Virus record (IMG/VR): IMGVR_UViG_3300042904_000219
Span: 1-42,826 of that record
Strand: one strand, 5' to 3'
DNA from: a virus
Length of the DNA: 42,826 nt
Each line of letters starts with the position of its first letter. Position 1 is the stretch's first letter. The translations under genes were made by a program, and so were the position numbers. The notes beneath the pieces are model-generated. The model was not told the DNA's origin and ran no database searches. It saw nothing but the letters and a program-made list of their open reading frames with translations. Positions 28,701 to 31,678 of this stretch are shown here, one piece after another.

Positions 28701-30169
28701 GCCGTCTTCGTCATGCCGAAAGTGCGCACCAGTTCTTCCTGCGCGTCTGCTTCCTTGATCGCTGTTTCCACGTCCTTGTCACGTTCGGCCGCGATCTGCT
28801 TCATGAACTTTGCCAGGTCGTCGGCACCCTTCGCCGCGCGCTTGTTCGATTCCTCGATTTCCTTGTTCACCCGGGCGGTATCTTCGCTCGCGCCCAGCAC
28901 CTCGATCAGCATGCGGTAGTAGCCTTCTTCCGCTGCGGTCAACGTGACTTTTCCCTCAGCTAGCGCCTTGTCCAACGACATAGCCAGCTTCTGGCTTTCC
29001 GTCAGCTTGGCCAGGCCGGCCGCCTCTCGGTCGCTTTCCGAGATCTTTCCTTGGATGGCATCGATCAAGCCTTGGTAGGCGTCGGCCTGTCGCTTGGCGT
29101 CCTTACTGGTGGTGTTGGCTGCCACGGTGCCGGCATTGGTCGACGTCACCAGGGCCTGCACCACCTCGCCGCCGGCGCCTGTCCACACGTCACCGATCGT
29201 CTTGGCCGTGCTGGTGAAGACGTCTTTCATATCGGCCTGCCACGCGTGGCCGATGTTCATGGCCTGCTTAAACTCCAGCTGGAACAGCGCGACGAGCTGC
29301 GCGCCCAGCATGCCGATCGTTTTGCCGGCCACGTTGAACACCTGGGTGATCAGCATGCCCGCGGTATAGATCAGCTTAAATCCGGTTCCGATCACATCGG
29401 CCGCGCCGCGCACCTTGTCGCCCGTGGTGATGAACTGCAGCATGGAACCGGTTAGAGAATTCAGGGTGGGGAGCAGCTGCGCGGCGACCTGGCGCGCGAC
29501 ACCCTGCGATGCCGCCCCCATCAAGTCGAGTGTATCGTTGAAGTCTCCGGCGGCGTTGACCGTCTTTTCGTCGAACGTCAGGCCGAGCTTTTCGGCCATC
29601 TCGTTCATTTCGCGCAGGCCCTCGCTGCCTTCGTTGAGCAGGGGGATCAGTTCCGCGCCGCTCTTGCCGAACAGTTCCACCGCCAAAGCGGTCTTGGCCG
29701 TGCCATCCTGCATCGCCGCGAACGCATCGGCGGAATCGCGCAGCACGTCCACGTTCGTGCGCAAGTTGCCGTTGGCGTCGCGTGTCTTGATGCCGAGCCG
29801 GTCGAACTCCTTACCGCCGTCTGCGATTTTCTTGGACAGCTTGATCATGGCCCCTTCGAAGGCGCCGGCTTCCGTGCCGCCCTTCTGGAACCACATCTGC
29901 AGGCCGGCAATATCCTTGATGGCAATGCCGGTCCGTTGGGAGATATCGGATACTGCGTCGGTGGCGTCGATGGCGCCCTTGATCCACCCGGCAAATGCGC
30001 CAGCCGCCATGCCGACAGCCAGCGCACCGAGTGCTTTTGTTGCGGTGTTCACGGAATCGCGGATTCCGTTCATGGCCCCGCCCACCGCCTGGCGGGCTTG
30101 GTCCATGTCCTGCCGGAGTTGCGCGATGTTGGCCGCCAATCGGATTTCAATGTCGCTGACGATTGCCAT
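25706..30169 (-). CDS. Tape measure protein with C-terminal DUF4214-like domain
   Basis: 1487 residues. The N-terminus (AIVSDIEIRLAANIAQLRQD, then KALGALAVGMAAGAFAGWI) is typical of siphophage tape measures, followed by hydrophobic segments near 235-290 and long coiled-coil regions. At roughly 1.5 angstrom per residue a tail of about 220 nm is predicted. Residues ~1379-1430 (ALYNSVLGRTSDAAGLSYYL, NIEQDIRNSAEYAAR) match the DUF4214 pattern of extracellular proteins, unusual here. The start overlaps the T-frame end by 23 bp. Confidence 0.9.
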   Translation of the reverse strand: MAIVSDIEIRLAANIAQLRQDMDQARQAVGGAMNGIRDSVNTATKALGALAVGMAAGAFAGWIKGAIDATDAVSDISQRTGIAIKDIAGLQMWFQKGGTEAGAFEGAMIKLSKKIADGGKEFDRLGIKTRDANGNLRTNVDVLRDSADAFAAMQDGTAKTALAVELFGKSGAELIPLLNEGSEGLREMNEMAEKLGLTFDEKTVNAAGDFNDTLDLMGAASQGVARQVAAQLLPTLNSLTGSMLQFITTGDKVRGAADVIGTGFKLIYTAGMLITQVFNVAGKTIGMLGAQLVALFQLEFKQAMNIGHAWQADMKDVFTSTAKTIGDVWTGAGGEVVQALVTSTNAGTVAANTTSKDAKRQADAYQGLIDAIQGKISESDREAAGLAKLTESQKLAMSLDKALAEGKVTLTAAEEGYYRMLIEVLGASEDTARVNKEIEESNKRAAKGADDLAKFMKQIAAERDKDVETAIKEADAQEELVRTFGMTKTALAELAVVRAQDNLERAKTEGLDYDEMERLRKIVDEKKRAAAATQQLEGLEEAKKASDELNKFFDESKAETFGDTLAKAFGRAGSAMGQLTSTFQSYANKQSSFEKQRGNAALKYLNNLSDEKEYTRDLQNIDRDRFSAQLGGYGDMAGAAAGFFGEQSKGYKILSSVSQAFHAAELAATIAGLVPKGIAAILTQGQGDPYTAFPRMAAMAAFVATLGVSVSGGGAGSASVSKQRQATQGTGSVLGDSSAKSESLANALKMVADNTYRNLSVNYDMLSALRSIESNLSGLGNLIVRGTGITDLASSVSGTSSGGFWGGMMKSIFGGKVSVLDTGIKIDPTSLAAAMAGGINAMSYVDTKKSGGWFSSDKFRTQTEGLGAEVNTQFGKVIASLAEGVKASASVLGMVGDEFNQKLSGFVVDIGLISLKDLKGEEIQAELEAAFSKLGDDIANYAIAGLSEFQKVGEGTYETLVRIANNYATVDAVLNSFGKTFGAVGMASVAARESLIELAGGLDDFTSQGSFFLENFFSDAEKEATLRTAVYAQLDKVAGGSSAQTVAQFKALVLAQDLTTQSGREAYASLMSASQAFIDLAKYTDEAAEKARELASQRRDLEIQIMEMEGKAIEALAAQRQMELAAVDVSLRPLYERIYALQDEAAATEAAANAVALLQSTAGAMFNELRRSVDAERSGVQESFNKLMAGIQASIDTTTAKITDLQALSAALRGANVAGVSDMQSSSRRAAADAQITAALAIARASGVLPKADDLKDALAAVAIDTADQFSSMADYQRAQLRTQNSIEELAGITDTELSVAQRTLIALQDQKTAAQSMFNAQMEKYDEMLTKAQQQLDAINGIGQVQPLIDAFNNFAASIAGALQNPTIGGQPSVTGQTQIEALYNSVLGRTSDAAGLSYYLDLLKNGASLANIEQDIRNSAEYAARTGSIYNPQQSGTMSAASGDQAAINQRMEENTARTAAAIEQLAQQFNQVSAGGNSLAVETV

Positions 30170-30671
30170 TGCGCTTATCCTTTTTCTGGTTTCGTTCTTC
30201 TGCTTCGGCCTTGGCCACAGCCTTCATCTGCTCTACGTTGCGTGCGCTTTGCTGCTTGCGCACCCATCGCCACTGGTTCGCGGCGCCGCGGTACGGCGGC
30301 TCTGCACCCCATTCCTTGGCTTTGTGCATCTCCATGTGGTAGGTGCGGGACAACTGGATCAGCGCCCGCATTTCCCATGGTTCGAACTCCAGGCCCAGCA
30401 CGTATTCCCAGCCGGGGATATCCTGGGGCTCGATGGCCGCGCCGTTCTTCACCGGGCCAAGCTCCATCAGGAATTCGACCAGGTGCCCGCCGAAGCCGAG
30501 CGGCGGGAGTAGAACGGTGCTGCCGGTTGCTTCTATCTGCTCACGCCGGATTGGCTCCGGCGCTCTATCCTGCTCGGGCTTCTTCGGGTTCTTCGGCCAC
30601 TCGGGCGAGGTGTTCAGCCATGCGACGTATCGCACATACTCGCCCAGCGAATCGGTCAGCCCGCGTAGAAG
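30147..30671 (-). CDS. Tail assembly chaperone T frame (expressed as G-T fusion)
   Basis: The T part has no need for its own start: ribosomes slipping -1 at GGGAAAC enter this frame at about 30671 and read 174 residues (LLRGLTDSLGEYVRYVAWLN...) to the stop at 30147. Together with the first ~133 codons of G this gives a G-T protein of about 307 residues. The T part is basic at the end (EERNQKKDKRNGNRQRH), probably to contact the tape measure. A GTG-initiated ORF at 30635 exists but is likely not the main form. Confidence 0.78.
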   Translation of the reverse strand, partial: LLRGLTDSLGEYVRYVAWLNTSPEWPKNPKKPEQDRAPEPIRREQIEATGSTVLLPPLGFGGHLVEFLMELGPVKNGAAIEPQDIPGWEYVLGLEFEPWEMRALIQLSRTYHMEMHKAKEWGAEPPYRGAANQWRWVRKQQSARNVEQMKAVAKAEAEERNQKKDKRNGNRQRH

Positions 30672-31069
30672 TTTCCCCGGTCAGTGTGGTACTTGTCGAC
30701 CGCCGCGGCGACGTGGCCCATGAGCGGGTCCATGTAGATCGCGCGCAAGGCTTCGTTGCCGGTCTTGCCTTCGTACTCCAGGCCTTCGGCGTTGGTGCCG
30801 CGCGTGATCGCCATCAGGAACTTGGCGCGGTCCTTGATCTCGTCCATTTCGTCGCGGGTGGATTTCTTGCCGGCCATCTGCGAGAACACTTCGGACTTCT
30901 GCGCCTTCTGGTATTCGTGCAGCGCGCGCATGGCTTCCTTGGTGCCCGGGCTGGCCACTGTGATAGTCCAGGGTTGGCCATTATCCAGGAGGATTACCTC
31001 TCCTTTTGCGTCGGGGATTTCGCACGTGCCTTCTTCGGCAATTTTGTACTTGCTGGGATTGAAACTCAT
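30656..31069 (-). CDS. Tail assembly chaperone G
   Basis: A 137-residue protein (MSFNPSKYKIAEEGTCEIPD...) between tail tube and tape measure, the position of lambda gpG. It contains an acidic beta-rich start and helices (KEAMRALHEYQKAQKSEVFS). Near its 3' end lies the slippery heptamer that gives the G-T fusion. Its RBS (AAAGG) is inside the interleaved repeat element at 31076-31143, so its translation may be controlled by RNA folding. Confidence 0.82.
   Translation of the reverse strand: MSFNPSKYKIAEEGTCEIPDAKGEVILLDNGQPWTITVASPGTKEAMRALHEYQKAQKSEVFSQMAGKKSTRDEMDEIKDRAKFLMAITRGTNAEGLEYEGKTGNEALRAIYMDPLMGHVAAAVDKYHTDRGNFYAG
30671..30677 (-). other. Programmed -1 frameshift site GGGAAAC
   Basis: On the coding strand the codons are CGG GGA AAC TTC, so G-GGA-AAC fits X-XXY-YYZ exactly in the zero frame, five codons before the G stop. 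A -1 slip gives GGG AAA CTT and continues in the T frame without an early stop. Lambda uses the close relative GGGAAAG at the same gene junction. Confidence 0.82.
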
Positions 31070-31075
31070 TTCATA

Positions 31076-31143
31076 CCTTTCGAGAGGGATGGCACCAGAG
31101 CCCGCCGCGCGCTCCCTCTCGAAAGGATTGTCCGCGCGGCGGG
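31076..31143 (-). promoter_or_regulatory. Interleaved inverted repeats over chaperone G RBS (RNA switch candidate)
   Basis: Perfect 14-bp inverted repeat CCTTTCGAGAGGGA (31076-31089) with TCCCTCTCGAAAGG (31113-31126), and perfect 11-bp CCCGCCGCGCG (31101-31111) with CGCGCGGCGGG (31133-31143). In the mRNA the order is B', A', B, A, then ATG. Pairing of the GC stem leaves the last arm, with its AAAGG Shine-Dalgarno, free; pairing of the 14-bp arms hides it. Both stems at once would need a pseudoknot with a 6-nt loop across 14 bp, which is unlikely. It sits between the abundant tail tube gene and the low-level chaperone. Remaining sequence 31144-31177 holds no clear signal. Confidence 0.75.
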
Positions 31144-31177
31144 TCGGTGCCCAGTTACGCCCAAGTGGGCGGATTCG

Positions 31178-31678
31178 TTACGGGGTGGTGTCTTCCACCG
31201 GTACGACCGGGGTGGCCGCGGGGATCGTGTCGGACTGGCGCAGCAGCGTCATGGTGCCAGTGCGGGCGTCGTTGTTGCCACCGCCGGCTTCCTGGAACGT
31301 CGACACCTGGGCGCTGAAGTACGACACGCCGTTGTTCTGGTCGACGACTGCAAAGCCGTACGTACCATAACCTTCGCTGGCCGCTGCTGCCGTGATCTGG
31401 CCCGGTTCTTCCGGCAGCCACACCACCGGGAAGTCGGAGGAGCCGAAGGTGAATTCACCCTTCTTCTCGCGGCTGCGGCCGGAGCTGACCACGGACAGCG
31501 TGGAGTTGGTGTACGAGCGACCGTTATAGGTGCCCACGCTGGTGATCGTGATCTCTTCGGCACCGGTGCCGAAGAACGTTTCCCACGCCGCTTCGGTGTT
31601 CGTGGCAGGGCGTCCTACCTTGATGAACAGCCGCGTGCCGGCATAAGTTTCGTAGTCGTCTTCAAATTCCATTGGCAT
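31178..31678 (-). CDS. Major tail (tube) protein
   Basis: 166 residues starting MPMEFEDDYETYAG at 31678, where AGGAG precedes by six bases; the frame extension to 31735 is rejected. Beta-rich with a sequence pattern of tail tube proteins (TRLFIKVGRP, ITITSVGTYNGRSYTNSTLS, KKGEFTFGSSDFPVVWLPE) and a C-terminal variable part. Placed between tail completion and chaperone genes. Bracketed by hairpins on both sides, consistent with high, separately tuned expression. Confidence 0.8.
   Translation of the reverse strand: MPMEFEDDYETYAGTRLFIKVGRPATNTEAAWETFFGTGAEEITITSVGTYNGRSYTNSTLSVVSSGRSREKKGEFTFGSSDFPVVWLPEEPGQITAAAASEGYGTYGFAVVDQNNGVSYFSAQVSTFQEAGGGNNDARTGTMTLLRQSDTIPAATPVVPVEDTTP

Follow-up and report, generated by a model that had tools for sequence, protein, structure and literature searches.

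A covarying RNA element at the tail-tube/chaperone junction of related viruses, with a predicted pseudoknot over the chaperone ribosome-binding site

Two interleaved inverted repeats occupy the gap between two predicted tail genes on the minus strand of IMG/VR virus record IMGVR_UViG_3300042904_000219 (positions 1 to 42,826; this whole stretch of 42,826 nucleotides is called the window here), and one arm of the repeats overlies a ribosome-binding site (RBS). The arrangement raises the question of whether the junction encodes an RNA that controls translation of the downstream gene and, if so, which structures that RNA adopts.

The upstream gene encodes the major tail (tube) protein; the downstream gene, G, is followed by a short ORF and then by the tape measure gene (Table 1). 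The window G protein has no Pfam or PHROG profile match, and its identity as a tail assembly chaperone rests on synteny, a frameshift signal, and a distant homologue (L016) that matches PHROG 313, tail assembly chaperone. At the slippery heptamer of the window, the -1 frame is open into the next ORF (30147-30635). An in-register heptamer lies near the end of G in 39/39 loci, either GGGAAAC or, in other clades, AAATTTT and similar, and the -1 frame is open in the loci translated. A position between tail tube and tape measure, an in-register -1 heptamer, and an open -1 frame are also the marks of the G/GT arrangement described in lambda (PMC5009743), and the presence of the heptamer in every locus supports assignment of the downstream gene as a lambda-type G/GT chaperone. 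Its start is presumably under the control of the junction element. A frameshift-stimulating pseudoknot was considered as an identity for the element and ruled out, because the element is intergenic and the heptamer lies about 400 nt further downstream.

Between the tail-tube stop (31178) and the ATG of G (31069), the minus strand reads, 5' to 3', P0 hairpin, GGCACC-GA-CCCGCCGCGCG-GACAAT-CCTTTCGAGAGGGA-G-CGCGCGGCGGG-CTCT-GGTGCC-A-TCCCTCTCGAAAGG-TATGAA-ATG. As the initial annotation had it, the 14-bp arms (CCTTTCGAGAGGGA/TCCCTCTCGAAAGG) and the 11-bp GC arms (CGCGCGGCGGG/CCCGCCGCGCG) are both perfect, they cross in the order A-B-A'-B', and the AAAGG of gene G sits within the 3' arm of the 14-bp repeat. 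The GC stem is longer than first noted, with an outer helix, P1a (GGCACC/GGTGCC), beyond the 11-bp helix, P1b. Of all perfect non-palindromic inverted repeats within 80 nt, the 14-bp pair is the longest that the window contains. Elsewhere, at 13752-13778/13805-13831, the window holds a 27-nt inverted repeat that is 85% complementary, with a 26-nt spacer. P0 perhaps insulates the element from the terminating ribosome; a P0-like second hairpin (GGCC/GGCC type) is found after the tail-tube stop in most relatives.

Table 1. Positions in the window of the junction element and of the flanking genes
Feature	Position	Strand	Basis
Major tail (tube) protein gene, upstream of element	31178-31678	minus	PHROG 158, E 1.1e-7
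P0, short hairpin CGCCC-ACUU-GGGCG just after tail-tube stop	31158-31171	minus	Folding
P1a 5' strand GGCACC, within conserved GCACCGAC	31146-31151	minus	Near-invariant; own versus swapped partners, z -3.0
P1b 5' strand (GC arm)	31133-31143	minus	Covariation
Apical loop strand, complementary to RBS (pseudoknot 5' strand)	31113-31126	minus	Repeat and loop-RBS tests
P1b 3' strand	31101-31111	minus	Covariation
P1a 3' strand GGTGCC (CGGGC or GGTGC in relatives)	31091-31096	minus	Junction alignment, swap test
Pseudoknot 3' strand, including SD AAAGG (31080-31076)	31076-31089	minus	Repeat and loop-RBS tests
Gene G, predicted tail assembly chaperone, 137 aa	30656-31069	minus	Between tail tube and tape measure; -1 heptamer
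GGGAAAC slippery heptamer, predicted G/GT -1 frameshift	30671-30677	minus	In register (G GGA AAC), last codons of G

Corresponding junctions were gathered by protein searches from some three dozen viral contigs, and some of the relatives, L050 and L060 among them, come from genomes of isolates. The layout is kept at the tail-tube/chaperone junction in 36 of the 37 tail-tube relatives with a complete junction, and even among close members the identity of the G protein to that of the window goes down to 43%. Aligned, the junctions run (P0), GCACYGAC, variable GC stem, bulged U, apical hairpin, stem, CGGGC or GGUGC, short A/U-rich linker, loop-complementary strand, SD, and ATG. The window and a near twin (L003/L006) represent one sequence type; L039, L008, L041, L042, L062, L073, L040, L044, L046, L050, L056, L059, and others each have differing stems and loops, and the L005/L008 junction retains loop-RBS complementarity with about 9 extra nt in the apical loop. 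P1a pairs as GC(A)CCG/CGGGC, GC(A)CCU/AGGGC, or GCACY/GGUGC, depending on the relative, and both its GCACYGAC strand and the bulged A and U vary much less than pairing alone would allow.

A covariance model gave 40 matches at 37-92 bits in the 0.7 Mb searched, all at the tail-tube/chaperone junction and some from outside its building set (e.g., L116); elsewhere in the 0.7 Mb it scored at most 16.4 bits. A search for the RNA pattern itself, run over the whole viral collection without reference to protein, gave 50 stretches. About 17 of them have a matching stem, and every one of these lies at this junction; the remainder lack P1 and resemble chance, and the full layout was found at this junction only. 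Nucleotide and G-protein searches of INPHARED phages left the window's own junction and G unmatched, and relatives there were reached only at a distance, by way of L016 and of the tail-tube protein; GTDB genome contigs yielded no relatives with either the window G or the tail-tube alignment as query. Roseobacter phage CRP-6 (L022, ~905-1000) has a 12-bp stem whose loop, GGTGTCGGGT, is complementary to ACCCGACGCC, immediately upstream of the SD (shuffle fraction 0.013), a possible independent version of the element; this helix and a weak loop-RBS helix in L016 (shuffle fraction 0.10) are suggestive only.

Compensatory change is seen in the stem. Across P1, 91.7% of cells are paired and 16 of 22 pairs have changed on both sides; doubly changed cells number 124, against 41 in shuffles (0/500 reach the observed count), and pairing falls to 34-48% when the alignment is slid by one to three columns. 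P1b strands fit their own partners far better than swapped ones (z -10.9, 0/50,000), and support for P1a is weaker because its sequence hardly varies. P1b also contains 28 G-U pairs and 4 A-C mismatches, an excess indicating that it acts as RNA of the mRNA-sense strand. For the loop-RBS helix, an A-C excess (51 to 14) appeared when the local alignment overran the helix into its flanks, and the tally of the two mismatch types within the core helix (3 to 5) is uninformative, so the strand argument is made from P1b.

The second helix joins the apical loop to the RBS. Own partners give a mean duplex energy of -21.6, swapped ones -16.7 (z = -6.5, 0/200,000), and the test retains z -4.8 to -6.2 with one representative per loop class. 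The helix is contiguous over 7-14 bp and nearly all Watson-Crick in 24 of 25 distinct junctions, ends 4-16 nt before the ATG, and is not convincing in one relative (L009); the energy of the window duplex, -27.7, was reached by 0/2000 RBS shuffles. In a fixed register on the model-fitted alignment its covariation is only modest, as expected where loop length varies and shifts the register, and the helix was therefore judged by the register-free swap test. Relatives lacking the repeats, or showing uncompensated changes in them, had been named in advance as the finding that would tell against an RNA switch; the comparison instead found both helices kept by compensatory change. At the level of sequence, the two helices, their compensatory conservation, and their position over the RBS are clear, and retention of the layout in 36/37 relatives, compensatory change, and the separation achieved by the covariance model together argue for a selected cis-regulatory RNA.

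Which structures are conserved differs from what was first proposed. Of 200 dinucleotide shuffles, only 1 folds as well as the minus strand or better (z = -3.4). Of the RNA switch over the RBS, the part that stands is a conserved element whose loop complement buries the SD; the part that does not is the reading of the two repeats as alternative hairpins, since the GC stem wins nested folding yet both helices covary. Nested folding shows essentially zero loop-RBS pairing in most members (L046 is an exception) and leaves the RBS largely free in most relatives. Because it picks the GC stem in most members, the relatives have not preserved a competition between two hairpins; that both helices are kept instead implies that they coexist, at least transiently. 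Such coexistence had been thought sterically hard, but the GC stem and the loop-RBS helix are compatible as an H-type pseudoknot with an 11-19 nt spacer, and a stem combined with pairing of its loop to a downstream strand that includes the SD region is the predicted arrangement of an RBS-sequestering pseudoknot of this type.

The outer helix introduces a second state. With P1a open, the spacer separating the P1b base from the RBS strand is 11-19 nt, mostly 12-14; with P1a closed, the spacer from its base is 4-12 nt, mostly 4-7. Under the steric limits of H-type pseudoknots, 11-19 nt can span an 11-bp stem, and 4-12 nt is too short for one of at least 17 bp. P1a and the pseudoknot should therefore exclude each other, the spacer left by a closed P1a being too short for a stem of about 17 bp or more. 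Rough energy sums place the two states within about 10 kcal/mol of each other, the pseudoknot ranging from 11 kcal/mol below the closed hairpin to 5 above it when no pseudoknot penalty is applied. By these sums the window is close to balance between the two states, and most relatives would have the closed form, with its free RBS, as their resting state. The resting state may thus be ON, given that nested folding leaves the RBS free and that a pseudoknot penalty favours the closed hairpin in most members.

The reading we prefer, with a probability of about 0.7, is that the mRNA between the tail-tube gene and G is a selected cis-acting element of translational control that would alternate between a P1a-closed state and a pseudoknot. 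The P1b stem would form as soon as it is transcribed and be common to both states. Its apical loop would then pair with the RBS of G to give the H-type pseudoknot, which requires P1a to open and would reduce initiation at G compared with the tail-tube gene, which the same mRNA carries. With P1a closed, the spacer would be too short for this pairing, the RBS free, and G on; in the pseudoknot state, the RBS would be covered and G low. Exchange between P1a and pseudoknot might be triggered by ribosome traffic, a tail protein, or a small molecule. Loop-RBS pairing thus probably sets the amount of chaperone made, and a role in the dosage of tail tube versus chaperone is plausible. The lambda virion contains about 192 tail subunits, while neither gpG nor gpGT stays in the tail (PMC5009743). 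A lower yield of G than of tail tube from a shared mRNA would fit this demand, and would also fit the terminator-like hairpins found at the same junction in more distant phages.

One alternative is a special case of this model with a named trigger: an autogenous operator, in which translation of G is repressed or released by a tail protein (G, GT, or tail tube) bound to the GCACCGAC/P1a region or to the pseudoknot, much as T4 gp32 acts on the mRNA that encodes it. Conservation of the GCACYGAC strand and of the bulged A and U beyond pairing needs would suit a protein site, and the protein-bound pseudoknot of T4 gene 32 provides a phage precedent (PMC3014915), but no RNA-binding domain was detected in the proteins scanned, and we consider an operator of this kind rather doubtful.

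The hairpins just mentioned, in distant phages whose gene order is similar (L020, L021, L025, where one is annotated, L026, L027, and L127), raise another possibility, that the stem is mainly a barrier at the mRNA 3' end or a weak terminator that raises tail tube over downstream genes, with RBS pairing secondary. No terminator was called on the minus strand between 30600 and 31800, where a GC hairpin followed by a U run was not found; the sequence after the window stem is AUCCC, and a U run is absent in most relatives. Short U runs do follow the stem in a few, so termination could contribute there. Such a function leaves the loop-RBS covariation unexplained, and as the main role of the stem it is plainly unlikely; the hairpins of distant phages may be a convergent solution for keeping chaperone expression down.

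SAM-II and preQ1 riboswitches are H-type pseudoknots that sequester the SD. The element has that form together with conserved bulges, and its unpaired bases could in principle bind a small molecule that drives the pseudoknot in the same manner. Its operon, however, encodes virion structure and has no link to metabolism, and no Rfam riboswitch matched at a meaningful score; a metabolite riboswitch is accordingly very unlikely. A mobile repeat (REP/MITE) or a chance GC-rich palindrome can be dismissed despite the REP-like look of the GC stem, since the element is present in a single copy in the window genome and shows compensatory change across dozens of phages.

Among known systems, the element most resembles, in kind, the gene 32 leader of T4, T2, and RB69, a phage mRNA pseudoknot that controls translation of the gene just downstream, as the present one would (PMC3014915). 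It is not a member of that family: the gene 32 pseudoknot lies upstream of the RBS, excludes it, and nucleates cooperative gp32 binding (PMC3014915), whereas here one pseudoknot strand is the RBS itself and the gene is a tail chaperone. In SAM-II and preQ1 riboswitches, and in SAM/SAH ones (PMC7367207), a hairpin loop pairs with the downstream SD region, as predicted here; the present element differs in lacking metabolite logic, in its much longer stem, and in the extra P1a helix that would exclude the pseudoknot. The E. coli rpsO (S15) operator (cited in PMC3014915) also employs a pseudoknot in translational control, but of a ribosomal protein gene unrelated to the tail chaperone. The lambda G/GT frameshift element (PMC5009743) concerns the same gene pair and controls chaperone dosage in translation, as the junction element would; it acts at the 3' end of G, in contrast to the present element at its start, and the window phage has signals for both.

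Rfam gave no meaningful match to the element at gathering or loose thresholds, and its described phage pseudoknot families, T4 gene 32 included, matched neither at gathering nor with a meaningful E-value. No description of the element, or of a conserved RNA structure setting tail-gene translation, was found in the open PMC literature, a scope outside which subscription papers mostly fall. A 2010 review noted that the T4 gene 32 pseudoknot was possibly the only viral one in translation autoregulation (PMC3014915), and the title of Sampson et al. 1988 (listed in PMC5712128) attributes rates of lambda late gene expression to translation initiation. Judged from sequence comparison, the RNA structure is real and selected; within the reach of the searches, it represents an undescribed family.

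More tentatively, and at odds we would put somewhat below even, the elements may constitute a new family of two-state structured RNAs in which an outer helix whose recognition sequence hardly varies competes with the loop-RBS pseudoknot, so that tail-protein status or ribosome traffic would set chaperone synthesis during assembly, in series with the G/GT frameshift. The dozens of naturally covarying versions make the model directly testable, and through the junction element gene G would come under a translational device at its start in addition to the predicted G/GT frameshift.
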